Shown one piece after another: positions 26,582 through 43,765 of a DNA stretch of 64,000 nucleotides. The translations under genes were made by a program, and so were the position numbers. Within the stretch, counting starts at the first letter, position 1, and each line of letters starts with the position of its first letter. Source of the stretch: Novisyntrophococcus fermenticellae (GTDB lineage: Bacteria > Bacillota > Clostridia > Lachnospirales > Lachnospiraceae); assembly GCF_018866245.1 (NCBI RefSeq), contig NZ_CP076458.1:1860001-1924000 (forward strand). The letters run 5' to 3'. The notes below the pieces were generated by a model. The model saw nothing but the letters and a program-made list of their open reading frames with translations, had not been told where the DNA came from and did not search any database.

Positions 26582-27388
26582 CTATGACTGTTTTTTGTTT
26601 TCCTCCACCAGTACCCCATGTACGACTAACCGTACCGACGAATCACTGGTACAGGTAGCAAGCGAAACAATTTTATCCGTCTCTTTTACCTTCACATCAA
26701 GCTTTTCTTCTGATTTTTTCTCCAGGGAGCGGATAAACTGCCCAAAGGCCTGCTTGTTTTCAAATTTAATTTGAAAAGCTACGTCCTTCCTGTCTGCATC
26801 CGCATCATGGTAAGAAAAAATCTGGTATGTCCGCCAGTCGTTTTCCGTATAAATCCAGAAATAAGGATTTTCCTTTACAGTATCCGCTTCCCTGATTCGT
26901 TTCAGATGTCCGAACATAGAACCATCCCTCATGTTATGGCCGAATATATAAGTATTATCGTCTGTAAATTCCTCATTCCCATATGAATCCATAAACAGAC
27001 TTCCGGCAGCATTTTTCTCGCCGGAAAATGTGTGATTTATATAATATGTATTATCCTCATCCTGCATAATCGGATAGTTAATACCCAATACCGGATAATA
27101 CAGCCATCCGATTGTATCCGGATTTTCCTTTTGAAGGCTTTTCAGATCTATAGCCGGAAGTTCCTTCCTATCCGCCTGCTCCAGCATGTCGGCCCCTGCG
27201 CTTTGCCTTACGTTTTCATATTCTTGCCTGGCTTCTTTATATTCTTTCTGTACCGATACCATATTCCAGATTCCATATGCGATGATACAAAGCGCCGCTG
27301 CAATAACAATATTTAAAATCGTTTTTTTTCTTTTGTCATCTGTCAGTTCTGTCTTTTTAATTTCTATTTTATCATAATTATCTGCCAT
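26582..27388 (-). CDS. srtB: class B sortase
   Basis: 268 residues. One N-terminal membrane helix (IVIAAALCIIAYGIWNMV) gives the type II topology of sortases. The class B core follows: IGWLYYPVLGINYPI, YYINHTFSG, catalytic His151 in YIFGHNMRDG, Cys246 in LATCTSDSS and Arg253 in VRLVVHG. The insertion typical of SrtB between strands beta6 and beta7 is present (residues about 205-235). In C. difficile SrtB accepts (S/P)PxTG-type signals, so the VPKTG signal of the 1741-residue protein in the same operon is a likely substrate. Three bases after the ECF S-component gene. Confidence 0.92.
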   Translation of the reverse strand: MADNYDKIEIKKTELTDDKRKKTILNIVIAAALCIIAYGIWNMVSVQKEYKEARQEYENVRQSAGADMLEQADRKELPAIDLKSLQKENPDTIGWLYYPVLGINYPIMQDEDNTYYINHTFSGEKNAAGSLFMDSYGNEEFTDDNTYIFGHNMRDGSMFGHLKRIREADTVKENPYFWIYTENDWRTYQIFSYHDADADRKDVAFQIKFENKQAFGQFIRSLEKKSEEKLDVKVKETDKIVSLATCTSDSSVRLVVHGVLVEENKKQS

Positions 27389-27391
27389 AGC

Positions 27392-28264
27392 CTACTCCTG
27401 AATCATCCCATATTTTATTTTAATCCGCTCCAGTTTCTCAATCATGGGTCTGGCAGCCAAAAAGAGAAATGTAACAGTGGCCGAAGCATGTACGAAATCT
27501 ACAGGGAGTCCAGAAATGTAAATTGCGAGCAGATTCTTTTTCGTAATGGCATATGACATCATGACCAGTGATGCCGGATTCATAATTCCCCCATAGATAA
27601 AAAGGGTGGCCAGAAATCCATAAATACACAAAGAACCTTTTCTCGCTTTGAGCCACCCCTTCTGAAACAGGATGCCTGCAAGAAACCCTATGATACCCAT
27701 AGCAAACATCTGCCATGGTGTCCATGGTCCCTGCCCAAATAGCATGTTCGAGGCAAGCATAGAAACAGCTCCCACCATAAAACCCGCTTCTGCACCAAAG
27801 CAAACACCTGAGATAATCACTACTGCAGCCACCGGCTTAAAGCTTGGAACCATGAAAAATGCTGCCCTGCCTGCCACAGCAATAGCGGCCAGGACAGAAA
27901 TTGTCAAAAGTTCTTTTGTCTGCGGCTTTCTGCCTTCAAATACCATAAAAAACGGAACCGTAGAAAGAAAAGCGATTGCCAGACTGACCTTCAGATATTT
28001 CCTGTCATCCCAATAGCGGATACCTCCAAAGATAATAACAGGGATCAGAATTAAAATCAAAAAGACAGATGCAATTGTCCGGGGAGGCAGTTTCCCTTTC
28101 CCTTTCGGAGCTGTCAGTATTTCCTGATAGTCCCAGAATCTTTCCTTTTCCGGCTGACGTATCTTTTCCGCTTCCTCCCAGAAATCCAGATCCACTTTCG
28201 GTGGGTTTTCTCTTCCTTCGAGGAATGCATCCAGAAACGTATCCAACTTATCTTCCCTCAGCAT
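27392..28264 (-). CDS. ECF transporter S component, corrinoid/cobalamin-precursor type (CblT/CbrT-like)
   Basis: 290 residues. An 80-residue soluble N-terminus and one or two extra helices precede the six-helix S-component core. Core blocks: RAAFFMVPSFKPVAAVVIISGVC, then GFMVGAVSMLASNMLFGQGP and WTPWQMFAMGIIGFLAGILF. The GQGPWTPWQMFA signature is shared by S components commonly found under cobalamin riboswitches. S components bind the vitamin and topple in the membrane with EcfT. The ATG overlaps the stop of the ATPase gene (ATGCTGA). The exact ligand (cobalamin, cobinamide, lower-ligand base) is inferred only from context. Confidence 0.8.
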   Translation of the reverse strand: MLREDKLDTFLDAFLEGRENPPKVDLDFWEEAEKIRQPEKERFWDYQEILTAPKGKGKLPPRTIASVFLILILIPVIIFGGIRYWDDRKYLKVSLAIAFLSTVPFFMVFEGRKPQTKELLTISVLAAIAVAGRAAFFMVPSFKPVAAVVIISGVCFGAEAGFMVGAVSMLASNMLFGQGPWTPWQMFAMGIIGFLAGILFQKGWLKARKGSLCIYGFLATLFIYGGIMNPASLVMMSYAITKKNLLAIYISGLPVDFVHASATVTFLFLAARPMIEKLERIKIKYGMIQE

Positions 28265-30024
28265 ACATCCTGCTCTCCTTTCACCGCTTTTTGAACCTGG
28301 AGAATATCCGCTATAACATCCCCGGCAGTAACCGCATCCGGAAAATATTGACGAGCCATACGATTTGCTGCCGTAGTATAAAAATTATTACCTGCGAAAA
28401 AACTACGTGAATCTTTGCAGCTTACCACATTTCCCTGAAAAAAGAGGCCCGTACGATCAGCATACTGGGCACAGAATTCAACATCATGGCTGATCAGAAG
28501 AATCGTCACCCCGTGCTGTGTCAATGTGTGCAGAATATCTCCCAATTCCTTTTTATAATGGTTATCGATGCCTTTTGTCGGTTCATCCATCAGTAAGATT
28601 CTGGGACGAAGCAGTAATACCTTTGCAAGTGCCAGCCTTTGCTGCTCACCTCCGCTTAAGTCATAGGGATGACGATTTAATAGATGTTCAAGCTTCGTAA
28701 GGGCGATGATGCCATTCACCGCATCTGCTTTTTTCATAGCAATCGGATAGGCTTTACTTTTCTTCTCCTTATCTCCATCAATCATCTCATAGAGGTCCTC
28801 CAGAACCGTCTTTTTTACAAAGAGGCTCTGGGGATTTTGCGGCATAACACCTAAAAATCCATGATACAGCTCGTCATCACTGTATTTTCCGATTTCTCTG
28901 CCTTCCAGCCAGATTTTACCCCGGTATGGATATCGGATTCTTGCTATCAGGCTCATTGTTGTACTTTTCCCGGTACCATTTCCCCCCACCAGTGCAAAGA
29001 TTTCTCCCTTCTTTACATCCAATGACAGTCCCTTTACCACATCCGGCAGATTTCTTTCATAGCGGAACCAGACATCCCGAATACGTATTGCAGGAATTTC
29101 CTTTTCCTCATTCCTCTTTTTTTTCTTTTCACCGAGCTCACGTTGTTCGGATTTCTTCAAATGTTTCTCTGCGGAAGCTTCTGTTGAAATCTTTTCCCCA
29201 ATCTCCTGAGAAAGCCAGCGACGGCCCTGACTGACTGTCAAAGGACAATGCAAAGAACTGTCTGTTCCTGCATAAATCTGCATAGGTGTAGGCATGGATA
29301 AAAACATGTTATGTTTCAGATTTTTGAGTAAGTTCCCGATTTCTCCCGGAGTTCCCTGTGCAATCATCTTGCCCTCATCCATGACATAAACCTGATTGGC
29401 CCAGGGAATCACATCCTCCAGTCTGTGTTCCGTCAAAATTACCGTGGTTCCGATATCACGGTTGATTTTTCGTACGGTCTCCAGAAAATCTGAGGCTGCA
29501 ATCGGATCCAGCTGTGAAGTAGGCTCGTCCAGGATTAAAAGCTGCGGGTGCATCGCCATGACGGAGGCCAGATTCAAAAGCTGCTTTTGTCCTCCCGAGA
29601 GTTCAGAAACATTCTTCATAAACCACTCATGGATGCCAAAATAAGAAGCCATCTCTGCTACGCGGAGCCGGATTGTAGGCGTGTCATATCCCAAGCTTTC
29701 CAATCCAAATGCCAGTTCATGCCACACCTTATCTGTTACAATCTGATTATCCGGATTTTGCAGCACATACCCAATCCCTGCACTCTGTGTACGCTGGTCT
29801 ACCTTCTGCAGTTCTTTTCCCATATAACGAATGCTCCCCGCTGCTTCTCCGTGAGGCGCAAGAACGGTTTTCAGGTGGCGTAAGAGTGTACTCTTTCCAC
29901 AGCCGCTCTTCCCACAAAGAACTACAAAGCTGCCTTCCTCCACTTCCATCTGAATATCCATTAAGGCAAGCGTGTCATTCTTTGGATACTTAAAACTAAA
30001 ATGTTCGATTTCAATACAATTCAA
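28258..30024 (-). CDS. fused ECF transporter ATPase (EcfA-EcfA')
   Basis: 588 residues with two complete ABC domains in one chain. First domain (about 1-270): Walker A CGKSGCGKSTLL, LSGGQKQLL, Walker B LLILDEPTSQLDP. Second (about 345-570): VGGNGTGKSTTM, LSGGEQQRLA, ILLMDEPTKGID. In most ECF systems these are two genes. The start is TTG at 30022-30024, overlapping the EcfT stop by TTGA, with GGAGGACAGCTGCC ahead; the frame is open 44 codons further inside ecfT. Provides ATP-driven energy for the adjacent T and S components. Confidence 0.9.
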   Translation of the reverse strand: MNCIEIEHFSFKYPKNDTLALMDIQMEVEEGSFVVLCGKSGCGKSTLLRHLKTVLAPHGEAAGSIRYMGKELQKVDQRTQSAGIGYVLQNPDNQIVTDKVWHELAFGLESLGYDTPTIRLRVAEMASYFGIHEWFMKNVSELSGGQKQLLNLASVMAMHPQLLILDEPTSQLDPIAASDFLETVRKINRDIGTTVILTEHRLEDVIPWANQVYVMDEGKMIAQGTPGEIGNLLKNLKHNMFLSMPTPMQIYAGTDSSLHCPLTVSQGRRWLSQEIGEKISTEASAEKHLKKSEQRELGEKKKKRNEEKEIPAIRIRDVWFRYERNLPDVVKGLSLDVKKGEIFALVGGNGTGKSTTMSLIARIRYPYRGKIWLEGREIGKYSDDELYHGFLGVMPQNPQSLFVKKTVLEDLYEMIDGDKEKKSKAYPIAMKKADAVNGIIALTKLEHLLNRHPYDLSGGEQQRLALAKVLLLRPRILLMDEPTKGIDNHYKKELGDILHTLTQHGVTILLISHDVEFCAQYADRTGLFFQGNVVSCKDSRSFFAGNNFYTTAANRMARQYFPDAVTAGDVIADILQVQKAVKGEQDVC

Positions 30025-30989
30025 GGCAGCTGTCCTCCTGTTTGCTTCATATACCACGGTAAGCTCCGCTCCATGTTTGCCTTCTTTTCCAGTCTGCGAA
30101 AGGATAAATCCTCCAATACTCCCATAAGCACCGGAAAAAGACAAATTATCCCCCATGCCAGATACACAGACACGCTTTGTATGCGCAAAGGGAATCCTCC
30201 AATCTTAATCACCGGATTATATTGGGCAAACAGAATTCCCTGACGAAATCCAATGATACAGATTGACATCAGACCTGCCAGAAATACACTCACCTTTACA
30301 TCCCGCCGGTCAAAATGAAAGATTGAAAACGCCGTTCTTCCCTTTAATCCATACCCTCTTGCACGCATGGAATCAGATGTTTCAATTGCATTTTCCAACG
30401 CCCAGGTAATCAGTATTGATAAGATGGTGATTCCATACTTAATCTTTCGCAGTAAATTACCATTACTCATATCCCGTCCCAACGCCTTTTGCCCACTTCG
30501 TATCACATTAAGCTGTGCTCCGAAATGTGGCACAAAACGAAATACCATAGAAAAGACCAAAGAAAGCGCCGGAATTACCCTTCCAAACAGATATACAAAT
30601 TTATCAGTAGTCATTACCTCGTTATAGCAGGAAAACCACAAAATAGCGATGAATAACATGGAAGCCAAAACAACTCCGTAAACAATGGCTTCCAAGGTCA
30701 CAGGACCTGTCTTCAGGTAAAACAGGAAAGTTACTCCATAATGATTAAAAGTCGGGTTAATAAATGCAACCACTACCATGGCCGGCAGCGTAAACAGCAA
30801 ATTAAACTTTATTACCTGTCGCCATCCTCTCAGTCGTATCGCATAACATAAGGCGCCCAGAAATGAAATACCAAGCAGAACCGGATGGCTTGTAAACATG
30901 GAAATCAGTATTACGGCCATAAAATAAAAAAAATTTACAGCAGGATGGCATTGGGAAAATGCATCTGCCCTCTTTTGATTTTGATTCAT
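30021..30989 (-). CDS. ECF transporter transmembrane component EcfT
   Basis: 322 residues, CbiQ/EcfT family. Five or six hydrophobic helices and the coupling helices with the Ala-Arg-Gly motifs; the second is readable as SDSMRARGYGLKGR, the first as RSGQKALGRD (divergent). It couples ATP hydrolysis to S-component movement. The ATG follows the stop of the DUF4430 lipoprotein gene immediately. A GGGGGAG ribosome site lies within that gene's end. Being next to a matching ATPase and S component makes this a dedicated (group I-like) ECF transporter. Confidence 0.9.
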   Translation of the reverse strand: MNQNQKRADAFSQCHPAVNFFYFMAVILISMFTSHPVLLGISFLGALCYAIRLRGWRQVIKFNLLFTLPAMVVVAFINPTFNHYGVTFLFYLKTGPVTLEAIVYGVVLASMLFIAILWFSCYNEVMTTDKFVYLFGRVIPALSLVFSMVFRFVPHFGAQLNVIRSGQKALGRDMSNGNLLRKIKYGITILSILITWALENAIETSDSMRARGYGLKGRTAFSIFHFDRRDVKVSVFLAGLMSICIIGFRQGILFAQYNPVIKIGGFPLRIQSVSVYLAWGIICLFPVLMGVLEDLSFRRLEKKANMERSLPWYMKQTGGQLP

Positions 30990-32162
30990 TTACGACTCCC
31001 CCATATACTGATCACCGACATCGCGGCCTAAATCGCATGTATAACGCCACTCTATGTTATCGCCATCACTCACTTCATATTTAGAGCACCCATAATTGGG
31101 ATACCAGCCATTCACACGATACATCCAGCCTGAAAGTTCTCCACAGTCAAATTCATAAAGCTGATTGATTCCTTTAACATAATAAGAGCTGTAGGCCGGA
31201 GTATAGGAGGCATCCATATGAAGCTTGTTGTCACGGCATATGCGGTAAAGAACATCATAAACGGTTTCTCCTGGCGTGTACTCCACTGTTGTGCTGCCCA
31301 TGATCCAACCATCGGAGGGTACAAAGCTACTCTTGGACTGCTTCAGATTATCCCAGTTATCTAAAATGGTGGAGCATTCTATGGAGATGGTACAGGTATG
31401 CCCGGATGCTTCTGTACGGTTCGATTCCTGCTGATTTTCTTCACCTGCAGAAGCCGCGTTTTCCGTTGTCTGGTTTCTGTTTTCTGCCGACGTACTGCTC
31501 GTATCTGCATCTTCTGTTTTATCATCCACTTTTGTCTTTCCGCCAACCAGATAATAGGTGTCTCCGGTTTCTGTCACAGGAAAGCTTAAACGCGTAACCT
31601 CTTTATCACCCTTTGTTTCCGTATCCAGGGTAACATCACACATTTTCCCCGGTCCTTTATCAGTCATCTTACATAATATAACAGAATCAGCATCCCACTT
31701 TTCCGTAAGTATAAGTGTCAGCTTCACGGGAGCGGCCAGATTCCCCTTATCCAACGTAAGACCCAACCCAACTGTAGCATTATTAGCGGCTTTCTTTATT
31801 TCCTCCACCTTTTCATCCGGAAACTGAACCTTCAATTTCTGCTCAATAGGGTTTTGGATCTTCTTTCCCTCATACGTCCAGATATACGTAATCCCTGTAT
31901 CCTGGTCTGTAGCGGAAAATTCATAATTACCATCCTTTCCGGTGATTGTTTCCATCTGATCCTGTGTAATAATACCGTCTTTCGGAAGTTCATTCTTTTC
32001 CTTCAGGCTTTTCACTGGCTTTTCTGAACTTTCTGATATGGCAGTTTCCGCTTTCTCCAGTTTTGTAATCTCTGCACTGTTGGTCGCCGGACCACAGCCA
32101 GAGGTCAGCACCGATATACAGACAAGCACCGCTGCCAGATATCTGCCGATTTTCCATCTCAT
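30990..32162 (-). CDS. DUF4430 (transcobalamin C-terminal-like) lipoprotein
   Basis: 390 residues from ATG 32160-32162 (GGAGGAAACCCT ahead). The signal peptide ends in LTSGC, so it is lipid-anchored outside the membrane. Residues 80-220 hold a beta-rich domain of unknown type, then a Ser/Thr/Glu linker (about 225-260). Residues 265-390 are a DUF4430 domain: TVEYTPGETVYDVLYRICRD, YVKGINQLYEFDCGELSGWM, YRVNGWYPNYGCSKYEVSDG and DNIEWRYT. DUF4430 is homologous to the beta domain of intrinsic factor and transcobalamin, which caps cobalamin. Its position right before ecfT suggests it is the receptor that hands ligand to the ECF transporter. Confidence 0.85.
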   Translation of the reverse strand: MRWKIGRYLAAVLVCISVLTSGCGPATNSAEITKLEKAETAISESSEKPVKSLKEKNELPKDGIITQDQMETITGKDGNYEFSATDQDTGITYIWTYEGKKIQNPIEQKLKVQFPDEKVEEIKKAANNATVGLGLTLDKGNLAAPVKLTLILTEKWDADSVILCKMTDKGPGKMCDVTLDTETKGDKEVTRLSFPVTETGDTYYLVGGKTKVDDKTEDADTSSTSAENRNQTTENAASAGEENQQESNRTEASGHTCTISIECSTILDNWDNLKQSKSSFVPSDGWIMGSTTVEYTPGETVYDVLYRICRDNKLHMDASYTPAYSSYYVKGINQLYEFDCGELSGWMYRVNGWYPNYGCSKYEVSDGDNIEWRYTCDLGRDVGDQYMGES

Positions 32163-32186
32163 AGGGTTTCCTCCTAACCGTATCAA

Positions 32187-32241: not shown

Positions 32242-35200
32242 TTAAATTTTCTTTCTGAAATAAATACATACACCTACTACTGCACCGCCGCAAATCACAC
32301 ACAGTACATACGGAATATTATTCTTTGAGAATATACCCTTATTATTATCCTGTTTCGCTGTCTTTGCCGCCGCCGGAACACTTTCTTTCGTTTCTGTATT
32401 CTCATCGTCTGCAAGCTCTTTTGTGTCCGGTTTATAGTCGGCTCCGTCAAAGCTCCAGACTTTTTCCTCATCTGTCTTGTTTTCAGAAGTTTTCTTTTGG
32501 GCAGTCTTTTTTGCAGCTGCAGTCTTTGTCACAGAACTGCCCGCTGTTGTCCGGGAATTTGTTTGTGATAACCGAGATGTATTGCCGCCGTTGCTTGTAT
32601 TCGCAACAGTATCCGGCTGTTCCATACCTGTACCACTGCCATCACCCTCTCCGCCTGGGGTCACCGCCAGATCTGACATATCATATAAAGCCGTTTTGCC
32701 ATCCAGGAGCCTTTGATAAGCTACAAGAGAATAAAAGCCCTGACCGGTAGCCAGACCATCCACCTCTCCTGCAGCGGCTCCGCCGTTATTACCACTTCCT
32801 GCCTTTACATGCATGAATCCACTTTCAGCAATATGATAAGAGATCAGGTTCTCTACTGTCCATGCCCCATTCTTTATAAATCTGGCATCTTTTTCAGGAT
32901 TGATTTCGAGTGCTGTAAGAGCTGTAATTACCTGAGCATTGGACTCTGATGTTTCCACCCCCATCGTACTATAACCACCCGCTTTTGTCTGCATACTGCC
33001 CAGACAGTCTAACGCTTTATTCACTGCTGCAGTCACATCTTCATAACCGGATTTGTTATAAAATGGTGCTAAGGACTGTAATGCCATCCCTGTCATATCG
33101 GAGTCGGCCTTTTTGCCGGATAATGCCCATCCCCCATCCTCTAACTGTCTGCCCAGGATAAAACTTAAAAGCTTCTTTTCGGTGGTCTGTTCTGCAACAC
33201 CGGATACCTGTGGAATTTGATAGTCAGGATGTGACTTCAACGCAATCAATGCCCATATCGGACCATTTAGCCCCTGATTCTTCACCTGATTGAAATCAGC
33301 CAACGGTTTTAGCAGATTATATCCCCCGACATTTCTTGCATCCTTTCCTATCGCAGTAACCGCAAGAATCGTCTTTGAATATTCCGTATACGCCGATTCG
33401 CTTAAAACACCGTTCTCCTGCTTCAGATAATTGGCAAGATGATTATAGTAAACCGAGAAATAAGGGTCATTCAAGTCCATACCATTTCTTGCCTGCGATA
33501 TCACATACCATTCGCTGCCCAATGTAGGGCTTTTATCGGTTGCTTTGACATAAGCCGCAGTCTCTTTGATAACGTCCTTGACAGTTTTAGACAGCGAATT
33601 AGCCGTAGTGACTACGGTAACCTTGGTCGCAGCCTTAACCTTCTCCTGTCCTTTTATGGATACAGTAATCACAGCAGTTCCCGCTTTTTTGCCTGTTGCA
33701 TTTCCTCTGGCGTCCACGGAGACAATCGAAGAATCCGAACTCTTCCACGCATACTCTACCTTACTTGTGGCATTCTCAGGAATTTTTTCCGGTGAAAGTG
33801 CAATTGTACTGTCTTTGGTTACCTTACACGTATTTTTTATATCCAGGCCGGTAATCGGGATTGGAACATCCACAATCAGAAATAGTCCGTTCTTATTTGT
33901 CTTTATCGTTGCCGTACCTAGTCCGGTATCCAGTTGTGCTTTTACAGCTTTTAACCCATTCTTATCATAATAGAATACCTGTGGATTCTCCATCCCTGAC
34001 AGACTTTTACAAGAAAGCGTAAGCGCAATGTTTTTCTCTTGTTTATAGCTGCTTTGATTCCGGATATCGGTATAGGAAATCTCCCATGCCTTTGCAGGGT
34101 CTTCTGCATATTTATATTTCTTTTTTAATGCTTTTACTGCTTCTGTAAGATTTTCTGGCTCATCTGCATGTGTTTGTATATACCAGTAGCTTTCTGCCAA
34201 GACTCCATTTTGTGCACGAATCCCATTACTGATCCAGATTTTTATCTGCCCGATCTGCTCCTTTTGCTCTTCACTGACTGCAAGTAAATCCTTTAATTCG
34301 TCATAAGCTACGGCGGCCTGCAAAAATGTCTGTACCTGCGTGCTCTCTGGTTGAACCGAAGCTGAAAGGTCTATCGCATGCACTGCATCCGCAATCAGGA
34401 GCGGCAGCGTATTTAACGCATCCGTCAGCCGCTGCACAACACCTTGATTTAACTGTTCTTTCTGTATCTCATCAAGTGCCTCATAATTCTCAGATGCATC
34501 GATAACCGCTGATACGTCATCCAAGGTAACCGGATCTGGAACAGATGCCAGCAGCTCATTTGTTTCCTGTACCTCCATCACCATCTCTTCCATGCGGGTT
34601 CTGACCTTTTCCAGTCTTTTTCTGTATGCCGCATCTACGAGGATTTTTTCTTCAGGTTTAAGTGCGTCATAAGCGCCTGCCGCATCTTCGACAGTCTTTT
34701 GGTCATTCATGGTCAATACAGACAAGGATGGAAGCTTCTGAATCAGTCCTTCCGCTTTATTTACATTTTCGTATTTCTCCGACAGTGTTTGTATGACAGA
34801 AACGCAGCGGGAAAGCTTCTGCTCCAACGCATCTTTGTTCTCCAGATAACTTTTTGAAATATCACTCAAAGATTCCCAGGAGTCCCAAGCCGCCCAAACC
34901 TCATTGGCATCTTCTATTGTAAGTACACCTGCCTTCGGTAAGGCTTCAATTAAGGTCTGTGTCTGAAGTGCAAGCTCCTTTGCATCTCCTACCGTGATCT
35001 GACAGATTCCCTGGATATCCGTATCAGCCTGCCGTGCCGTAATTGTGACCGTTCCCTTGGAGACGGCGGTTACAACTCCTTCTGTGGAAACCCCGGCAAT
35101 AGAGGCATCGGAACTGCTCCATGTAATCAGCAAAGGCTCTGTGGCATTATCCGGCTTGCCGGACACCTCAAGCTGATATGTATCCCCGGCCTCCATGGAA

Positions 35201-36072
35201 AGGGCTGTCTTATTCAGGTTAATGGATGTATACGGTCTTGGGATGACCGTCACAACACAAGACTCACTGATACCGTTCTGTGTCATTGCAGTAATAACAG
35301 CTGTCCCGGCTTTTTGGGGAGTGATTCTCCCGGTCTGACTCACACTGGCAATTCCCGCATCTGATGAATTCCACGAAATGCCTGGAAAAGAAGTGTCCTC
35401 CGGATAGACTTTGGCTGTCAAGGATGTCACCGGATCATTCTCATAGAGTGTCATACTGCTGTTAGAAAGAACAATGGATTCCGGCCAGATCACTCCCTGA
35501 TCCGGCAACGCATTTAATGCCTGATCCACCTCCTTTTGTGTCGCATTTAGTTTCTGTGCAATCTTCACTGCACTTTCATAGGCTGTCCGATCCTGTTCTG
35601 TCAAAAGCCAGCTGTCCGGAGCCTGATTGATATAAGCCAGCCTTACGAAAAGCTCTGACTTATCGGCTCTGGTATAGGCCTTTCCTGAAGGACTCTCTCC
35701 ACTGACATCAAGACCGGTTCCATATAGGGTGAACTGAATACGTAAAACATCGTTATTCTTGAGTTTATAGTTTCCCATGCTCGTTCCCGGGAATTCATTA
35801 TTCACAGAATACATCCATCCGGAAGTCTCTGTCCCCGCATCTAAAGAAGCATAAGAAAACTCTTTAAGGTCAGGTGCATATTTATTAATTAGATTGTATG
35901 TCAGTGTCCGCCCATCCTTTTTCGCCATATCCTTGATAAACTGGGGGATATTTAAATCTCCCCCTTTGTCACCTCCGGCAATTCCTGCAAGATACCAGCC
36001 ATAACCACTATTCAGATTCACAATCAGAGGATACTCTTTTTGTTCCATGTATCTGGTAAGCAGGCTGCTCAC
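32242..36072 (-). CDS. DUF4430-Ig-like-alpha/alpha-toroid surface protein (main frame; cut off from its signal peptide by a frameshift)
   Basis: 1276 residues from the first usable codon (GTG). Order: DUF4430-like domain (1-105; LNSGYGWYLAGIAGG, SGWMYSVNNEFPG), a helical FIVAR-like unit, two Big_2-type Ig folds (195-360), helical repeats (370-670), a third Big_2 fold (about 755-830), an alpha/alpha toroid of the prenyltransferase/squalene-oxidase-repeat type (860-1134; RQLEDGGWALSGKKADSDMT, QTKAGGYSTMGVETSESNA), a charged linker, a membrane helix and FRKKI tail. The coding frame stays open upstream to 36180 and encodes the missing domain start (VSVEKFTLGKGWITEP), but the signal peptide is in another frame. 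Alpha toroid plus DUF4430 is the intrinsic-factor combination. Corrinoid binding is inferred. Confidence 0.8.
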   Translation of the reverse strand: MSSLLTRYMEQKEYPLIVNLNSGYGWYLAGIAGGDKGGDLNIPQFIKDMAKKDGRTLTYNLINKYAPDLKEFSYASLDAGTETSGWMYSVNNEFPGTSMGNYKLKNNDVLRIQFTLYGTGLDVSGESPSGKAYTRADKSELFVRLAYINQAPDSWLLTEQDRTAYESAVKIAQKLNATQKEVDQALNALPDQGVIWPESIVLSNSSMTLYENDPVTSLTAKVYPEDTSFPGISWNSSDAGIASVSQTGRITPQKAGTAVITAMTQNGISESCVVTVIPRPYTSINLNKTALSMEAGDTYQLEVSGKPDNATEPLLITWSSSDASIAGVSTEGVVTAVSKGTVTITARQADTDIQGICQITVGDAKELALQTQTLIEALPKAGVLTIEDANEVWAAWDSWESLSDISKSYLENKDALEQKLSRCVSVIQTLSEKYENVNKAEGLIQKLPSLSVLTMNDQKTVEDAAGAYDALKPEEKILVDAAYRKRLEKVRTRMEEMVMEVQETNELLASVPDPVTLDDVSAVIDASENYEALDEIQKEQLNQGVVQRLTDALNTLPLLIADAVHAIDLSASVQPESTQVQTFLQAAVAYDELKDLLAVSEEQKEQIGQIKIWISNGIRAQNGVLAESYWYIQTHADEPENLTEAVKALKKKYKYAEDPAKAWEISYTDIRNQSSYKQEKNIALTLSCKSLSGMENPQVFYYDKNGLKAVKAQLDTGLGTATIKTNKNGLFLIVDVPIPITGLDIKNTCKVTKDSTIALSPEKIPENATSKVEYAWKSSDSSIVSVDARGNATGKKAGTAVITVSIKGQEKVKAATKVTVVTTANSLSKTVKDVIKETAAYVKATDKSPTLGSEWYVISQARNGMDLNDPYFSVYYNHLANYLKQENGVLSESAYTEYSKTILAVTAIGKDARNVGGYNLLKPLADFNQVKNQGLNGPIWALIALKSHPDYQIPQVSGVAEQTTEKKLLSFILGRQLEDGGWALSGKKADSDMTGMALQSLAPFYNKSGYEDVTAAVNKALDCLGSMQTKAGGYSTMGVETSESNAQVITALTALEINPEKDARFIKNGAWTVENLISYHIAESGFMHVKAGSGNNGGAAAGEVDGLATGQGFYSLVAYQRLLDGKTALYDMSDLAVTPGGEGDGSGTGMEQPDTVANTSNGGNTSRLSQTNSRTTAGSSVTKTAAAKKTAQKKTSENKTDEEKVWSFDGADYKPDTKELADDENTETKESVPAAAKTAKQDNNKGIFSKNNIPYVLCVICGGAVVGVCIYFRKKI

Positions 36073-36140
36073 CGTTTCTTCTCCCAGAAGTGGAACGACC
36101 TCCGGCTCTGTAATCCACCCTTTCCCCAGCGTGAATTTTT

Positions 36141-36260
36141 CTACTGATACAATAACTGAAGAGGCTCCCCCTGCGCCCGGGCAGGAATTGCATCATACAT
36201 CCCTCCGCCAAAGCACAAAAGAAGTGCCAGGAGAAATGCCAGAATTCTCTTAATTCCCAT
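36141..36260 (-). pseudogene. displaced signal-peptide start of the toroid gene
   Basis: ATG 36258-36260 opens MGIKRILAFLLALLLCFGG then MYDAIPARAQG, a textbook signal peptide, and stops at 36141-36143 after nine unrelated residues. Adding one G to the run of five at 36167-36171 (C on the plus strand) would join it to ASSVIVSVEKFTLGKGW of the main frame. So the intact gene would be about 32242-36260. It may be a real mutation, a slipped-strand switch or a sequencing error. Confidence 0.75.
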
Positions 36261-36290: not shown

Positions 36291-39200
36291 TCAGATGCTC
36301 TGATTTTTTTTCTTTTTCAGGCAAAGCATAAGGACACCTGTGCTCATGAACAGCAACAGCATCATGGATTCTGCCCTGTCTGCAAGTACATCCCCGGTCT
36401 TTGGCACACCCGCATTGCCTCCTGTAGTGTTTCCAGGAGGGGTACTGCTGTTTCCGCCGCTGTTTTTTTTCTGCGTTCCATTATTCGAATTATTTGTATT
36501 GCTGCCATTATTGTTGTTTCCATCTCCATCATCTCCGGAGCCTGTATTCTCCCGGATTACACCGGATGCAAACGAAGACAGGCTTTGGGTTGTAAATGTA
36601 ATATCTCCATCTTTTGCGTCCGCCTGAAGGAACTCCACGGTTCCATCCTCTTTCAGGTGTACGATTACCGGCGTCTTTCCTGACAGATCCTCATCGGTAT
36701 GTACCGTAAGGCTCATTCCTCCTTCGGGCATGAAATCCTGATAACTTCCATCCTCCAGGATCTGATAGGCAGTTACGTTGAATGCATTCAGGGTGGATGC
36801 TTTTTTCTCTTCATCCAGCTCATCACGCAGGACGGCATAGCGGTCTTCCGACTGGGCAATGCGCTCTATCTTGAGTACAACATCCCAGGGAATCGTCCCG
36901 TTATAAGTAACCAGTTTATTCTTTACATTTTCCTCTTTCTTTGCTGCAGAGATTTTCTCCTTCATCGTATCCATGGCCTTCACCAGATCAGCGGATATCA
37001 GTGTCTTCTGGGAAGGGGTCAGTGCATCGTAGGCGGCTTCGGCTTTTTTCAGCGCCACAATCGTATCCTCCGACAAAAGATCATTATCTTCATCAACCGC
37101 ATCCTCTATCTGAGACATCACAGCTTCGGTTATCTTCTGAGCCTCCAGGAAATCATCCAGTCCCGTTTTTATATCTTCCCAGCGGTCAAGATAGATGATA
37201 AAGGTTTTTGCCTGTTCACTCAACGCATTGTACTGCTTTTGTATCTGCTCCAGGGCTGCCTTTACATCTTTAACATTCCCCTGATTGACTTCATCGGGCA
37301 GATCTTCGATCCGGTTATCCACTTTAGCTGCAGCTTCCAGATCACTGTTCAGGGTGGACAACTGACTTTCAACTGTCTCCATCTTATCCTGCAGACGGGT
37401 TCCATCCTCCCAGGCGATACTATTCAGATAAGTCTTTGCCTCCTCATTTGCCTGGTATCTGGTGAGCAGGTCTCCCGCAATTCCCATATTGTATTTTGTA
37501 ACCGGGAGTTCAAAGGATGCAATTTCTTCCACCAGCGGTGTCAGCACCTCTTCGATATAACCGTTATATTGCTCTGCGATTTGTTTCAAGTCCATAAGCT
37601 TCCGGTATTCTGCAGGGTTTTCATTGGCAAATACTTTTTGCAATGCTTCATCCATAGACTGATACCGGCTCACAGCCGCTGCAATTTCCTGAAGGACTCT
37701 CTCTGTTATCTTCATATCAGAGCCGTCTTCCTTATGTCCTTCCAGAGTTTCAGGATCAGGCAGCTTCTCAATCAGTTCCAGCAGATCCTCCTGCTTCAAG
37801 GCTGTCAGTTTCGCCTCCGCCCCTGTCAGTACGGTGTAATTAGTTACCCTCGCCTTTAATGCCTCCGTAGAAAGGCTCTCATACAAACCTCTGACACTTT
37901 TTACAAATGCATCATCCTCCAGGGTAAGTTCCTCAAGCGCCGGAATATCCGCGATGTTCTCAATCACTTCCTGAACCGCCTCGGCATCGCTTTGCTGCCC
38001 TTTGATCGTCTCATAATCGTCCAGCAGCTTATCGCGCTGATCGGAATCCAGTAGTTCCCTCTGTTCTTCTGTGAGCAGCATATATTCCTGATATGCCTTC
38101 TTTACCGCATCCCCGTCTGTCTCGTAGGAAAGATCTTTCGAATCCGGCAGGGCCTCGATCAGTTCCGATACAGTCTTAACAGCTTTCAGATTCCGAATTT
38201 TCTTCTCGGCAGTAATCAAATCGGAAGAATTGGATATCTGCGCTTTTAAATCTGTATCCAATACATCATACGAAGCTCTGGCCGCACTGACAGCATCTGC
38301 ATCTTCAAGGGCAAGAACATCTGCTGACGGTAAGTTAGCAATCGCTGTGATGACCTGATATACCGTATGGTTCTCCTGTAATATCTTGTATCTTTCCTTT
38401 ACCGGCTGCTCCTGTTTTAAAGAATCGTCCAATTCCTCATATGCATCCTGCGCCGCCTGGATTGCTGCACCACTGTTTACATCAACGGTTCCTACCGCTG
38501 CTACTTTATCGGCAAAATTCTGATACTTTTCTGCCTGAATTAAGAGTTTCTGATTGGTAACGTATCCCTGCAGCTTTGCTTTTAGCTCCACATCGCCGCC
38601 GCCCAGAGCTCCAAAGGCTTCCCTTACTTCTGCTATCTTTTCTTCGCTCACGGCAGCCAGATCATGCAGGGATTCTATAGATACGATTACCGTATCCACT
38701 TGATCTGATTCTTCCAAGGTACATACGCGAACCTGCGGTTTTTTCACAAGTTCCGGATTGATATTCGCCACTGCTTCATATAATGCATAGTAGTATTTGC
38801 CCAATCCCTCGACAATATCAGTACTATCTGGCAGTGCATCTGCTGCCTGTTCTAATGTTTCCTTTAATGCTTCACGTTTTTTCTCATCGTCTATGCCCTG
38901 TCCATCGTCTCCGTAGAGCACACTGGCAACATTTAAAAGATCCTGATACTTGTCTACCGTAAGTGCATAACGATTCCAGACATTATCCCCATGAACGATA
39001 TCTCCCAACCCTATAATGGCATCCTTTGCCCACATGGGTTCTTTTTTACTAATGTCATACCAGAAAGACCCATCTTCCAACTGATATCCCTGCAATGCTT
39101 TTAAAGGAGTGATGGAATCATTGACGGCAAATACTTTTTCAATATCGATTCCTGCGGCGGCCATGCCTTCCAACACGCATCCATGGGATATTGTATTCGC

Positions 39201-41516
39201 ATATTTGTACCAGAAGTTATAGAACATCCCAGCTTCGTCACCTTCTGTAATGAGTGTTGGTCTGAATTTTTCCACCAGCGCAGCCAGCTGGGTCTTGGGA
39301 ATCAAATCGGAAACAGCACCCAGCGCCCATGCACGCATATCCAGATCAAAGAACTCATTTCCCGCCAGTGCTGTCACATCCTTCACCAGCCCGTCCGGAA
39401 TGTTCGCACCCGCTGCCCGTAGTCCCATCAAAGCCCAGATCTTATTGGCAAAGGGTCCAGTCCAGTCCTGTTCCAGATGTTCCACCAGGTTATTCCCCTT
39501 ATCATCGGTATATTCATACGGATTTTCACCGGTCATAACTAACTGTAAGATATCCCGGCCATAATCTGTGGGCTGATTATATGTGTTTTTTCTAACATCA
39601 TTTATAACATTTCCGTCCAAATTATTATTTTCATCTGTCGCTGTTGCACATGCAGAGAAAATCGGCCATGAACCACGCAAGTCTTTTTTTTGCGACTTAG
39701 GACGGGCATGCCATCCTGATAGCATATCATTGGCAAGATCTTTTGTTTCCTGGGAAACAGAGAAGTACGGTAACGTTCCATCCTCCATTTTATGCAGGAA
39801 AAGATAGAGCTTTGATGTAATCTCATCCTCTGCAAGAACTTCCAGCCTTGTGATATCGCCCGCAGATACGGTAATCTTATCACCCTCAACCCTTTGCCCG
39901 TCTACTGTATAAGTTGCATCGGAAGAGACCTGAATATTATCCAACGTAATTGGACTGTTATCAGAATCCAAGTCGAGAATAAAACTCTGTTCACCCTGAC
40001 TCAGCTGCTGATCCAGATCACGTACACTTCCTCCCTGAAACGTAAGTGATTCAAGCGAACACTCACTGGATTTGCGCATGATTTCAATTCTATGTATTTT
40101 TTTCGTAATCCCATCCGGTGCCGTTACCTCTATCTTGACAATTTTATTGTCGTTATCATCTGTTTCTATGGTTGGATCATCCAGATTAATTCCATAATAA
40201 TTTCCACAATGATCTTTTCCATCCTCGAAATAGCCGCCCTCGCTTTGTTCATTACCAAGAACATTGACATTGGCTCCGGGAGCAGATGGTAGAATCCCCA
40301 GAAGGAGCTTGTTGTTTTTAATGGTTTTTGGAATACTCACCTTAAATCCACCAGAATTTATATCGATTCCTATCTCGTATTGAGTTGGAACTTTATAATC
40401 CTCTGGAAATGAATTTGCTTTTAATTCAGCAATATCAGCATCATTACTTGGCTCAATTTCAGATTCCTCCCCATCCCAGTATATAATATATGGAATATTT
40501 AAAACGTATCTTTGTTCCATATTATTAGATGAATTCAGCCATGGAATACTTATATCCTTATCTTTCATGCCTGGAGGCATTGTACTAAAATCGTATGCAA
40601 TTGGGGGTTTTCCAACTATAAACGATAAATTTATTACATTTAATCCTTTTTTCAGATGTAGCGGCGGTGTACTATTTTGATTTTTGTAGATATTACTATT
40701 TACAACAAAGCGCTGTACCAGACCACCATTGACCGAAATATAATTATTTCCAATGCTCATCCAGTAAAGACTTTTCCCTGATGCCTCACTGAATTTAACT
40801 GTTTCTATTTTACTTTGTTGTCTATTAACAACCATGGATATATCACGAATTTCTTTCGATAATTCGGCGTAATGAAATTTGCTGTCACCCTTTCCAAGCT
40901 TTGTCATTTCCGTAGTACCTGACAAGATTTCATCTGAATCGTTATTTTTCACTCCTACATATTCGGTAAGAAACAATGAATCTTTACTAGTGTCAACTGG
41001 TAGCGCTTTGTTATCCAATATGGCAATATAGTTATCAGTACTGCCATTCAGACTTTCTGTTTTGATTTCAAAATAAAGGGCTCCCTTTATGTTTGTATTA
41101 AAATAAATATCCATATTAGACATTAGGTTTTCATAAGTAATTTTAAAATTATTTTTTCCGTCCACTATCTGGTTTTCAATTGTTTTGTCAGATTCATTAA
41201 ACACTGTTCCTTCACTATTAAAAAGATCTAATGAGCCAAAAACTTCAGAAACCCGACTATCCGCATCAGGTAAAGTTCCTTCTATCGTTATTTTCGTTTG
41301 AACGCTAATATTAAAAAGGTCAATATTACCTACTAGTATCTTAGAATTTGCATCCAAAGGTTCAAGCTCCGTTACACTTCTATCGTTGTATATAAGTTTC
41401 ATCTGTATTTGGGATTCATCTTCCCCCGCCCCAGATGCCTGGGCATTTGTTAGGTTCATACTTGAGCAAATACCTATTGTTGTAATCAAAACTAATAAAT
41501 TAATAAATCTTTTCAT
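36291..41516 (-). CDS. 1741-residue cell-wall-anchored toroid/helical-repeat surface protein
   Basis: Signal peptide at the N-terminus (NLLVLITTIGICSSMNLTNA), ribosome site GGAGGAAGGCT. Residues 30-570 are beta-rich, ending in a cadherin-like sandwich (CSLESLTFQGGSVRDL...). About 590-900 reads as an alpha/alpha toroid (GPFANKIWALMGLRAAGANI, MRAWALGAVSDL, LKALQGYQLEDGSFWYD). Residues 960-1590 are helical FIVAR-like repeats with recurrent LPD/LPSAD turns. The C-terminus is Gly/Asn-rich, then the sorting signal VPKTGD, a hydrophobic helix and KKKKNQSI. The first third of the gene is visibly AT-richer than the rest. Second gene of the cobalamin-riboswitch operon. Confidence 0.82.
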   Translation of the reverse strand: MKRFINLLVLITTIGICSSMNLTNAQASGAGEDESQIQMKLIYNDRSVTELEPLDANSKILVGNIDLFNISVQTKITIEGTLPDADSRVSEVFGSLDLFNSEGTVFNESDKTIENQIVDGKNNFKITYENLMSNMDIYFNTNIKGALYFEIKTESLNGSTDNYIAILDNKALPVDTSKDSLFLTEYVGVKNNDSDEILSGTTEMTKLGKGDSKFHYAELSKEIRDISMVVNRQQSKIETVKFSEASGKSLYWMSIGNNYISVNGGLVQRFVVNSNIYKNQNSTPPLHLKKGLNVINLSFIVGKPPIAYDFSTMPPGMKDKDISIPWLNSSNNMEQRYVLNIPYIIYWDGEESEIEPSNDADIAELKANSFPEDYKVPTQYEIGIDINSGGFKVSIPKTIKNNKLLLGILPSAPGANVNVLGNEQSEGGYFEDGKDHCGNYYGINLDDPTIETDDNDNKIVKIEVTAPDGITKKIHRIEIMRKSSECSLESLTFQGGSVRDLDQQLSQGEQSFILDLDSDNSPITLDNIQVSSDATYTVDGQRVEGDKITVSAGDITRLEVLAEDEITSKLYLFLHKMEDGTLPYFSVSQETKDLANDMLSGWHARPKSQKKDLRGSWPIFSACATATDENNNLDGNVINDVRKNTYNQPTDYGRDILQLVMTGENPYEYTDDKGNNLVEHLEQDWTGPFANKIWALMGLRAAGANIPDGLVKDVTALAGNEFFDLDMRAWALGAVSDLIPKTQLAALVEKFRPTLITEGDEAGMFYNFWYKYANTISHGCVLEGMAAAGIDIEKVFAVNDSITPLKALQGYQLEDGSFWYDISKKEPMWAKDAIIGLGDIVHGDNVWNRYALTVDKYQDLLNVASVLYGDDGQGIDDEKKREALKETLEQAADALPDSTDIVEGLGKYYYALYEAVANINPELVKKPQVRVCTLEESDQVDTVIVSIESLHDLAAVSEEKIAEVREAFGALGGGDVELKAKLQGYVTNQKLLIQAEKYQNFADKVAAVGTVDVNSGAAIQAAQDAYEELDDSLKQEQPVKERYKILQENHTVYQVITAIANLPSADVLALEDADAVSAARASYDVLDTDLKAQISNSSDLITAEKKIRNLKAVKTVSELIEALPDSKDLSYETDGDAVKKAYQEYMLLTEEQRELLDSDQRDKLLDDYETIKGQQSDAEAVQEVIENIADIPALEELTLEDDAFVKSVRGLYESLSTEALKARVTNYTVLTGAEAKLTALKQEDLLELIEKLPDPETLEGHKEDGSDMKITERVLQEIAAAVSRYQSMDEALQKVFANENPAEYRKLMDLKQIAEQYNGYIEEVLTPLVEEIASFELPVTKYNMGIAGDLLTRYQANEEAKTYLNSIAWEDGTRLQDKMETVESQLSTLNSDLEAAAKVDNRIEDLPDEVNQGNVKDVKAALEQIQKQYNALSEQAKTFIIYLDRWEDIKTGLDDFLEAQKITEAVMSQIEDAVDEDNDLLSEDTIVALKKAEAAYDALTPSQKTLISADLVKAMDTMKEKISAAKKEENVKNKLVTYNGTIPWDVVLKIERIAQSEDRYAVLRDELDEEKKASTLNAFNVTAYQILEDGSYQDFMPEGGMSLTVHTDEDLSGKTPVIVHLKEDGTVEFLQADAKDGDITFTTQSLSSFASGVIRENTGSGDDGDGNNNNGSNTNNSNNGTQKKNSGGNSSTPPGNTTGGNAGVPKTGDVLADRAESMMLLLFMSTGVLMLCLKKKKNQSI

Positions 41517-41599: not shown

Positions 41600-42124
41600 T
41601 TATGCAGTTTTGGGATAGTAATAATTACTATATTTGAGTGCAACACTGGATCCATCTATACTAATCGTATTCTGGCTCATATAGTTGTTTTCATCCAATG
41701 GGCTGCTTCCGTCAAAGCCTGAGTATGTCCATCCAACTCCATAATATGCAACATCGGACTCGTAGGCCTTTCCCTGGTAATGCAAATCTGATGGCGCTGT
41801 CCCATTGATATACAGACCATCCAGTGCATTGTAAGTAATGCTGGGATTTACCCAATCCGGCACCACTTTCCAGTAGCCCTGTGTGATATTCAGACCTAAA
41901 CCTGGTAATGCTTGTTTAACAATTGTCTCTACATCGGTACCAGGCGCAACATACACTGTTTTCGTTCCATGCAGTGCCGGATGTGTTCCATCGCTTACTG
42001 CATCAAGTGTCACCGTAACCGAAATATCCGTGCCGGCAGCGAACACACTCATGCTCATGGACATTACCATCACCATTGCCAGAACAACTCCAACCATCCT
42101 CTTAACTGAATTCTTTAACCTCAT
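41600..42124 (-). CDS. small secreted DUF4430-type protein
   Basis: 174 residues from ATG 42122-42124, with AAAGGAGTAACA ahead. Signal peptide RMVGVVLAMVMVMSMSMSVF ends at AAG. The 145-residue mature part is a single beta domain with the family layout: VTVTLDAVSDG, VYVAPGTDVETIVKQALPGL, a Trp/Tyr-rich stretch (YWKVVPDWVN) and GVGWTYSGFDG with a C-terminal NYYYP. It resembles the DUF4430/transcobalamin beta domain without an alpha barrel and without an anchor, so it should be released. First gene of the riboswitch-1 operon; in excess it could scavenge corrinoid or supply a cap domain to the toroid proteins. Confidence 0.75.
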   Translation of the reverse strand: MRLKNSVKRMVGVVLAMVMVMSMSMSVFAAGTDISVTVTLDAVSDGTHPALHGTKTVYVAPGTDVETIVKQALPGLGLNITQGYWKVVPDWVNPSITYNALDGLYINGTAPSDLHYQGKAYESDVAYYGVGWTYSGFDGSSPLDENNYMSQNTISIDGSSVALKYSNYYYPKTA

Positions 42125-42279
42125 TGTTACTCCTTTCTCCGCTTTTCTAAGCGGTTTAAGTATTACTAACGTAAAAGTTCCTATCATACCGGGACGGCGC
42201 CTGTCCCACTATAATCAATAATACCTATCGGAGTGTACAAAAAATACACCTCCATTCTGCCTATGGACGTAGCATCTAG

Positions 42280-42440
42280 GGTTTTTGTGTTCGTATTCTG
42301 ACTTGGGTTCCTCCTACTCAAAAGCGCCTTCCCGGATATCCTCCAGTGGCATCCTGCTTTTTTTCGTCCCCCATACAGCAGGGATAACTGTTCCGGATTC
42401 TCACCGGATTCCTTTAAACAGAGCGTATACTCTGACCACA
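42280..42440 (-). promoter_or_regulatory. cobalamin riboswitch 1 (full form)
   Basis: Minus-strand RNA carries the B12-aptamer landmarks in order: AAAGGAATCC-GGTGAGAATCC, the B12 box GCCACTGG (42343-42350), GGGAAGGC, a GGAGGAACCC arm and AAGTCAGAATAC (42293-42303). It lies between a strong promoter and the small DUF4430 gene. Cobalamin binding would lower expression of the downstream operon. The expression platform includes GGGAC-AGGCGCC-GTCCC (about 42190-42210) and CCGCTT-AGAA-AAGCGG just ahead of the ribosome site. Confidence 0.9.
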
Positions 42441-42477
42441 AAAGCTTTTCAATATTCAGTTTTTTTTCTTCACTTTC

Positions 42478-42527: not shown

Positions 42528-43376
42528 TCAAACCTTCTTCTCTATATATTCTACCTGAAATCCAGACTCCTGACAATAAGAATCCACAATTCCACCTTTT
42601 CGGCATCGGATTTTAGCACTGCGGTTGATAATCCACGGTCCGATTTCCGCCGGATCCCTTCTGATTTCCAGAATCTTCAGCCGGTTACAGCCATGAAATG
42701 CCCACTTTTCAATCGCCTTTACACTCTCAGGAATACACACATACTCCAATTGATTACATTTTAAGAATGCGCTGTCCCCGATTTTTACCAAGCCCTCCGG
42801 CAGCGTCAATTCTTTTAGCGCCGTCTGATAGAAGGCCTCTGTGCCAATCTCTTTTAATCCGGCGGGAAATTTCATCTCCTCCAGCGCTGTACATTTGTAA
42901 AATGCCCGCCGTTCAATTCTTGTGATGCCGTCCGGAATGTTCACAGAATTCAGATTACTGCAGCCTGCGAAGGTCTCAGGCTTAATCTCCCTGCAGACAC
43001 TTCCCCGCTCAATCTGCACCTGTTCCAGACGCCGGCACTGTGCAAATGCCCTTTTTCCTATGAAATTAGCTGTTCTGGGAATACGAACCTGACTCAGCCT
43101 GGTACAGTTATAAAACGCTTCCTTCCTGACCGACACGATTCCCTTCATCTCCACATTCCTGAGCGATGTATTCTCAAAACTCTTAACACCCACCTCTTTT
43201 ACATGTTCCGGCAGGATAACCCTCCGCAATTTGGTGTTGTTTCTGAAGGCTCCCTCACCAATCGACCGGCAGCTCTGATCTGCCGTCCATTCTTTCTGTC
43301 TTCCGATTTCTTTATCCTGTGACTTTGTAAACGTATTTCCTGATTCTGCTCTCCATACGGAGACCCTTCCTCCCAT
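42528..43376 (-). CDS. BspA-like leucine-rich-repeat protein without signal peptide
   Basis: 282 residues from ATG 43374-43376 with AGGAGGTAATAAA ahead; the frame is open 18 codons further but that part is the riboswitch terminator. About nine LRR_5 (BspA/Treponema) repeats of the IGxxAFxxCxxLxxVxIPxxV type fill residues 35-270 (e.g. IGKRAFAQCRRLEQVQI, IERRAFYKCTALEEMKFP). Cysteines are frequent. BspA proteins are usually exported, but no signal sequence, anchor or membrane helix is seen, so it may be intracellular or leave by another route. It sits alone behind a cobalamin riboswitch. Confidence 0.8.
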   Translation of the reverse strand: MGGRVSVWRAESGNTFTKSQDKEIGRQKEWTADQSCRSIGEGAFRNNTKLRRVILPEHVKEVGVKSFENTSLRNVEMKGIVSVRKEAFYNCTRLSQVRIPRTANFIGKRAFAQCRRLEQVQIERGSVCREIKPETFAGCSNLNSVNIPDGITRIERRAFYKCTALEEMKFPAGLKEIGTEAFYQTALKELTLPEGLVKIGDSAFLKCNQLEYVCIPESVKAIEKWAFHGCNRLKILEIRRDPAEIGPWIINRSAKIRCRKGGIVDSYCQESGFQVEYIEKKV

Positions 43377-43391
43377 TTTATTACCTCCTGC

Positions 43392-43420
43392 AAAAAAAGA
43401 TGCAGCATCACACTGCACCT
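43392..43420 (-). terminator. intrinsic terminator of riboswitch 2
   Basis: Minus strand GGTGCAG / CTGCATC stem with 7-base loop, followed by TTTTTTT, ending eight bases before the ribosome site of the LRR gene. This is the OFF structure of the leader. Confidence 0.8.
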
Positions 43421-43562
43421 CAGCTTTCAATCACAAGAAAATAAAGCTATCTTAACGATTACCTTCGCTGCCGCAGTATGCGCATGATAAATAGGAAATC
43501 TCTCTTTGTAAAAAGGGTACAAAAAGAAAGACAATTTCCCACTCCATTTATCATTGCGTGTA

Positions 43563-43765
43563 ATAATTGGCAACAGCTTTAAGCAGGTCTCCTGGCTTAC
43601 GCAATCCCATCTCTCCCCTTCTCATACAATTTTACAATGTGTACAATGGTATATGGAGAAATTACGCGCATACAGTAGCACGACTGCCAAGGATTCTAAC
43701 CTTGTTCCCTCTTGGCCTGATGCCTGCACCCAATCGCACATAGCACCAGGAACTTAAAACCGGTA
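43563..43765 (-). promoter_or_regulatory. cobalamin riboswitch 2 (short form)
   Basis: Minus-strand RNA: GGTGC...AAGAGGGAACAAGGTTAGAATCC, GGCAGTCGTGCTACTGTA and the distal AGCCAGGAGACCTGC (43583-43598) match the core of the B12 aptamer. Unlike riboswitch 1 it lacks the internal CCACTGG...GGGAAGGC arm, so the peripheral domain is reduced. Between it and the LRR gene lie a 65-base hairpin (about 43488-43555, GATAAAT / ATTTATC arms) and the terminator. Together these fill the 43377-43836 gap. Confidence 0.82.

Follow-up and report, generated by a model that had tools for sequence, protein, structure and literature searches.

Organisation of the cluster

The window analysed here, a stretch of 64,000 nucleotides (NZ_CP076458.1, positions 1,860,001 to 1,924,000) from the 3.42-Mb, one-contig genome of Novisyntrophococcus fermenticellae, contains on its minus strand a gene cluster (43772 to 26582) that is a candidate system for the capture and uptake of corrinoids. 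Read along this strand, the cluster opens with a cobalamin riboswitch followed by a gene for a BspA-type leucine-rich-repeat protein. A second riboswitch of the same class then precedes the genes for a small secreted protein and a 1741-residue protein, a large protein combining an SLBB domain with an alpha/alpha toroid, an SLBB lipoprotein, the EcfT, fused EcfAA' and S components of an energy-coupling factor (ECF) importer and, finally, a class B sortase (Table 1). Most of what a first-pass annotation had claimed for this locus was borne out: the riboswitch lead, the two toroid proteins, the full ECF transporter (with both ABC ATPase stretches on a single polypeptide) and the sortase were all recovered, and a second riboswitch that had been missed was added. 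Three DUF4430 proteins had also been proposed; the lipoprotein and the large protein stood, but the small protein is doubtful.

Table 1. Features of the cluster and the gene behind it, in window coordinates.
Feature	Position	Strand	Evidence
Cobalamin riboswitch 1	43565..43772	-	Rfam RF00174, 95.9 bits
BspA-type leucine-rich-repeat protein	42528..43430	-	PF13306, E 1.2e-54
Cobalamin riboswitch 2	42271..42456	-	Rfam RF00174, 82.1 bits
Small secreted protein, doubtful DUF4430/SLBB relative	41600..42187	-	no Pfam match
1741-residue surface protein with alpha/alpha toroid	36291..41516	-	hhalign against toroid alignment, probability 99.1%
DUF4430/SLBB-toroid surface protein	32242..36171	-	Pfam, structure prediction, VIA-align of toroid
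SLBB lipoprotein	30990..32186	-	Pfam E 5.7e-19, alignment, predicted structure, VIA-align
EcfT, CbiQ-type membrane subunit	30021..30989	-	PF02361, E 1.2e-9
Fused EcfA-EcfA' ATPase	28258..30156	-	TIGR04520, 341 bits; two ABC_tran stretches
CbrT-like S component	27392..28264	-	6fnp_A, E 7.3e-9; family profile, E 2.1e-21
Class B sortase	26582..27388	-	TIGR03064, above cut-off
Xylose-isomerase-like TIM-barrel protein	25552..26619	-	PF01261, E 1.7e-11; synteny

Both aptamers, recognised by sequence and structure model with scores above the RF00174 gathering score of 31.5, lie upstream of genes of the cluster on the same strand. Promoter-like hexamers are located just upstream of riboswitch 1 (43807-43778) and at riboswitch 2 (42506-42478, 11/12), and a terminator-like hairpin lies between riboswitch 1 and the leucine-rich-repeat gene (43421-43397); all of these are consensus matches only, from a scan that returned 47 promoter-like sites against 39.8 +/- 6.6 in shuffled sequences and 26 terminator-like sites against 15.2 +/- 4.1. 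Compared with shuffled sequences, the segments that separate each aptamer from its gene fold better (z of -2.9 and -3.6), as expected of an expression platform. The leucine-rich-repeat gene behind riboswitch 1, for which inspection by eye gave a probable start at ~43375 and no signal peptide, has orthologues in two genus relatives (L037, L038).

Surface proteins and their likeness to animal B12 carriers

The lipoprotein (68.8 bits) and the large protein (N-terminal match, E 2.1e-7, 31.7 bits) both exceed the curated cut-off of 23.8 bits for DUF4430 (PF14478). In the lipoprotein, an N-terminal beta domain (residues 64-216) is followed by the DUF4430/SLBB domain (260-388), which is modelled with strands at 263-270 and 294-303, a helix at 309-319, a hairpin at 324-329/334-340 and strands at 353-358 and 377-383; the lipobox cysteine, C31, forms an invariant column across 82 aligned sequences. 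The best fold matches of this SLBB domain in VIA-align are the animal cobalamin carriers. In the large protein, the DUF4430/SLBB domain is followed by Big_2 domains, a helical region, further Big_2 sequence, the toroid (residues ~857-1169 of the segment) and a C-terminal membrane anchor: structure prediction and VIA-align show the toroid as an alpha6/alpha6 barrel, as in the animal carrier family, in a model with a mean predicted local distance difference test score of 86.6, the SLBB part being weaker (mostly 53-87). Among named relatives, a Blautia liquoris protein (P0007, 83%) comes nearest to the toroid. In the assembly, the large protein is broken near its signal peptide, which is found in a different frame from the body (36171-36260, near a G run); four relatives (P0001, P0007, L037, L038) are intact here, and the break may represent either a sequencing error or a switchable start. 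The Paenibacillus versions of this protein (L079-L152) have S-layer homology domains, many of them with toroids flanking the SLBB domain on both sides in one chain.

The second toroid lies at about residues 580-935 of the 1741-residue protein, after an N-terminal part of unassigned fold and ahead of long helical-looking repeats. The Pfam search gave no match for this toroid, and its assignment comes from profile comparison only (hhalign against the toroid alignment, E 1.2e-18). The protein ends in a GVPKTGD sorting-like motif with a hydrophobic stretch and a basic tail, an ending conserved in all three genus loci inspected (this protein and 2/2 genus relatives). The small protein (probable start 42124, 174 residues) is secreted and fast-evolving, with a family of 18 database proteins including itself, both of those with organism names being from Blautia. 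PF14478 was not matched in the Pfam search, hhalign to DUF4430 gave a weak 9%, the same-place protein from a genus relative matched DUF4430 under the cut-off (E 0.0013) and a homologue with 76% identity (P0243) is 'DUF4430 domain-containing' by UniRef name: on these grounds, a third DUF4430 protein was not established. The alignments used throughout comprise 45 of 120 listed homologues (A1), 81 of 120 (A2), 29 of 34 SLBB segments (A3), 22 of 24 toroid segments (A4) and 16 of the 20 loci having an S component match (A8), with two of the remaining four in A9.

The first-pass annotation had anticipated a resemblance to intrinsic factor, and this was found in part: the barrel and the likeness of the SLBB domain to the cap stood, but the toroid is nearer to terpene cyclases, and the list of its fold matches includes transcobalamin but neither intrinsic factor nor haptocorrin. 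GH105/GH88 proteins are also similar in fold. The toroid profile matches cyclases, prenyltransferases, macroglobulins/complement and pectate lyase in the PDB, with no intrinsic factor or transcobalamin among 37 matches up to E 10; in Pfam, the window toroid has sub-threshold matches only (prenyltransferase, SQHop, pectate lyase), and one of three relatives (L058) exceeds the SQHop_cyclase_C cut-off.

The ECF importer and the sortase

Among PDB entries up to E 1, the sole match of the S component is 6fnp_A (CbrT), and a profile of 17 S components finds CbrT at 2.1e-21 versus 9.4e-5 for RibU: its sequence places the S component closer to CbrT than to the other solved S components. Its core comprises residues 113-290 and is preceded by ~112 extra residues, a part (window 28264-27930) in which two hydrophobic stretches can be seen by eye. 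The GQGPWTPWQMFA signature reported at first pass is real, with the second G, first P and second Q invariant and the first W, T and M conserved to >90% in 17 aligned S components; the GQGPWTPWQ motif varies little across this set. In some relatives (L039, L040, L058, L060, L072), the S component is fused to EcfAA'.

According to the accessible text of PMC5997447, CbrT from ECF-CbrT of Lactobacillus delbrueckii (PDB 6fnp) binds and transports both cobalamin and cobinamide. The window S component belongs to the same family by profile and an ECF module is common to both systems; however, the module used by CbrT also serves other S components (PMC5997447), whereas the window operon brings its own EcfT and fused EcfAA', its S component is extended at the N-terminus and putative surface capture proteins are added.

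The match of EcfT to the Pfam family CbiQ, named 'cobalt transport protein', and the label 'putative metal binding' on the solved bacterial protein 3u7z could be taken to indicate a transporter for cobalt or another metal. CbiQ is, however, the general EcfT family, the S component is CbrT-like and CbiM is encoded separately in this genome, under a different cobalamin riboswitch; a metal transporter is accordingly scarcely credible here. Cobalt transport was rejected on the matches of the S component.

The sortase scores 186.6 bits with TIGR03064, above the NCBIfam equivalog cut-off of 153.75. Within the genus, it is split over two frames in one genome (G003) and was not found between the S component and the next gene in another (G005), and sortase B is therefore an accessory rather than a core part of the system.

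Linkage to cobalamin riboswitches and ECF genes in relatives

Across 79 genomes (own genome, genus, family and order), DUF4430 was found in 33 and RF00174 in 59, the latter count being made with stricter filters by which weak riboswitches are lost. Among 58 DUF4430 places, 33 (in 23 of the 33 genomes) lie at most 15 kb downstream of a cobalamin riboswitch on the same strand, 12 of these within 1 kb, compared to ~0.25 expected from random placement; two places are near a riboswitch on the opposite strand and one is on the wrong side. This count includes below-cut-off riboswitches in G054 and G002 and a below-cut-off DUF4430 place (G044 C22). In six genomes (G029, G031, G036, G046, G047 and G054, the last with its riboswitch below cut-off) a short form occurs, in which a cobalamin riboswitch is directly followed by genes for a small DUF4430 protein and, separately, a CbrT-like S component. 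No other riboswitch class was seen upstream of relatives without a cobalamin riboswitch in the loci of the Rfam searches.

To look beyond the order, a Paenibacillus toroid-SLBB protein served as bait against named genomes, with loci picked regardless of riboswitches: the best 80 of 189 matches yielded 74 loci from ~69 genomes by title, 57 of the loci belonging to Paenibacillaceae. Using a covariance model derived from 21 riboswitches of this analysis, with which Rfam's own model agrees in 5/5 loci, a same-strand upstream riboswitch was detected in 64/74 loci; it lies within 3 kb in 59/74, four of them weak (L146-L148 and L150, E 0.0005-0.04), and when only loci whose upstream DNA extends to 1.5 kb or more are counted, the figure is 59/68. 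Riboswitches within 3 kb are present in 50/57 Paenibacillaceae and 9/17 clostridial loci. A CbrT-like S component is encoded in 63 of the 74 loci, EcfT in 64 and an EcfAA' match in 66. An SLBB-only gene stands directly upstream of EcfT in 64/74 named loci and in 13/40 loci of the relatives set, many of the latter being fragments or without ECF genes. The conserved set is riboswitch, toroid/SLBB protein, membrane-side SLBB protein, EcfT, EcfAA' and S component. Where both toroid and SLBB domains are present, they share a single frame in 61/73 named loci and 13/23 loci of the relatives set, and are found on separate genes only in 12/73 and 10/23, respectively.

These counts bear on the suggestion that corrinoid is handled by the S component and ECF module only, the toroid and Big_2 proteins being adhesins or wall proteins that happen to be encoded in the same operon, with a toroid that binds glycan or lipid. 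Such a role would suit the proximity of the toroid fold to terpene cyclases, its GH105/GH88 likeness and the presence of Big_2 domains and a leucine-rich-repeat protein within the cluster. Nevertheless, a surface protein used as the lone bait retrieves the riboswitch and a CbrT-like S component in most of the 74 loci, and the toroid and SLBB domains are frequently joined in one frame, like in the animal carriers; we regard the adhesin explanation as improbable.

A probable capture and uptake system for corrinoids

The linkage of riboswitch and S component, the relation to CbrT and the predicted folds support the interpretation given at first pass, and the cluster is very likely a cell-surface capture and uptake system for corrinoid (B12-type) molecules. 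Under scarce cobalamin, both riboswitches would permit expression of the cluster, judging from their class. Secreted toroid proteins would then trap corrinoid at the cell surface, the SLBB domains serving as caps: the 1741-residue protein, with its sorting-like C-terminus, may be attached to the cell wall by the sortase B encoded nearby, whilst the second toroid protein would be membrane-anchored and carry its own SLBB cap. We infer that the membrane-side SLBB lipoprotein takes over the corrinoid and presents it to the CbrT-like S component, which together with EcfT and EcfAA' would import it at the cost of ATP.

Several observations weigh against this interpretation. On the structural side, the toroid resembles terpene cyclases more than it does transcobalamin, both by Z and by sequence, the SLBB profile finds transcobalamin-2 only at E 0.78 (second in the list) and the relative placement of toroid and SLBB domain in the large protein is predicted without confidence (predicted template modelling score 0.42). 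As for linkage, 25/58 DUF4430 places are without such a riboswitch: a laxer Rfam search of nine riboswitch-less DUF4430 loci found one in 0/9, four of these (L042, L069, L072, L074) having the full toroid-SLBB-ECF-S set, and of seven loci in a separate search only L065 had a riboswitch, on the other strand. The riboswitch is also less constant in the 17 clostridial named loci (five strong and four weak within 3 kb), and the 57 Paenibacillaceae loci are not independent of each other. A crude motif test detected a lipobox-like stretch in only 5/64 and 7/13 of the EcfT-adjacent SLBB proteins. Finally, the genome encodes CbiD as well as CbiM and a periplasmic-binding-protein/FecCD pair (BtuF/BtuC type), the last two next to other cobalamin riboswitches, and a need for scavenging is thus not obvious; scavenging would therefore be a supplement, or be aimed at other corrinoids.

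This last option corresponds to a system that imports, for remodelling, foreign cobamides or precursors of corrinoids (cobinamide, cobyrinate derivatives, pseudocobalamin) instead of cobalamin itself. CbiD matches occur in the own genome and nine others of the 33 DUF4430 genomes, and their own cobamide synthesis may therefore be possible; furthermore, CbrT takes cobinamide too, in the accessible text of PMC5997447, and cbrUVT is listed with cobyrinate diamide uptake in that of a review (PMC8123684). On the other hand, 23/33 DUF4430 genomes have no CbiD match and the sequence features do not separate these ligands, and we consider a precursor-directed system rather unlikely. CbiD is rarer in DUF4430 genomes than in the others (10/33 versus 27/46, p 0.022), an effect that is weaker among the better genomes (0.07). 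Confinement of the system to B12 non-producers was rejected, given CbiD in the own genome and in 10/33 DUF4430 genomes.

Within the corrinoid-capture reading, a 'split intrinsic factor' relay can be envisaged, doubtful though it is at present: barrel (the toroid-only wall protein) and cap (the lipoprotein, perhaps also the small protein) would reside on separate chains, and corrinoid, once bound by the free barrel, would pass from barrel to barrel via cap exchange, ending on the membrane-side cap docked on the S component. On this view, loci with separate genes would represent the simplest arrangement, and the animal carriers would be a soluble side branch in which barrel and cap are fused.

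Relation to known systems

The Isd haem relay of Staphylococcus resembles the window system in having wall-anchored binders, a lipoprotein, an importer and sortase B in one operon, but differs in its ligand (haem), its NEAT domains and its ordinary ABC importer. The folds of BtuG and BtuB from Bacteroides are unrelated to those of the window proteins. As presented in the accessible text of PMC6143338, BtuG/BtuB capture B12 at the surface ahead of the transporter, as is proposed for the window system; unlike the latter, they are a Gram-negative surface lipoprotein and an outer-membrane transporter. Human intrinsic factor, transcobalamin and haptocorrin share with the bacterial proteins the alpha6/alpha6 barrel and the SLBB beta domain, and the title of PDB 5np4 indicates that the transcobalamin beta domain alone holds cyanocobalamin; in contrast to the human carriers, the bacterial domains are surface-anchored and partly on separate chains, the toroid scores nearer to terpene cyclases and sequence matches between the two groups are weak or were not found.

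The general system is a known prediction, of which the window locus is an enlarged variant. In its accessible text, the paper by Burroughs et al. (2007; PMC1796856), which defined the SLBB superfamily, describes surface proteins of Gram-positives that combine SLBB and toroid domains and are encoded in operons alongside CbiO, CbiQ and SLBB paralogues, states that such bacteria are usually without key B12 synthesis enzymes and proposes both B12 scavenging and transfer to animals. The domain pair, secretion or anchoring, paralogous SLBB genes, CbiO/CbiQ neighbours and predicted scavenging are common to those systems and the window cluster, as are FIVAR and Ig-like additions; the window differs in the B12 synthesis gene CbiD of its genome and in a second, toroid-only protein. 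The words riboswitch, sortase, ECF and substrate-specific are absent from that text. With the riboswitch, CbrT and fold evidence, the 2007 prediction becomes well-supported. A proteomics table in PMC9963975 contains the protein name 'additional lipoprotein component of putative cobalamin ECF transporter', which, as a name only, suggests that annotators had already tied a lipoprotein to ECF transporters for cobalamin. Searches of an open-access library, in which most subscription papers are missing, turned up no experimental work on these proteins. If the interpretation is true, Gram-positives including gut Blautia possess a surface B12 capture system comparable to Bacteroides BtuG and built of bacterial relatives of human intrinsic factor; the 2007 prediction would be directly testable, with relevance for B12 competition in the gut and the origin of the animal carriers.

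Neighbouring genes

Close behind the sortase, the window contains the TIM-barrel gene followed by NrdG and NrdD (25552-22334). The TIM-barrel gene follows the S component or sortase in each of the three genus loci compared, with NrdG next in all three and NrdD in G003. Because NrdG and NrdD trail the sortase so closely, these B12-independent ribonucleotide reductase genes may share the B12-controlled transcript. Directly upstream of riboswitch 1, response regulator and histidine kinase-like genes were seen by eye (45997-43837). A Clostridiales-1 small RNA is located at 19370-19521 (123 bits), and another occurs in L065 close to DUF4430 and riboswitch places.

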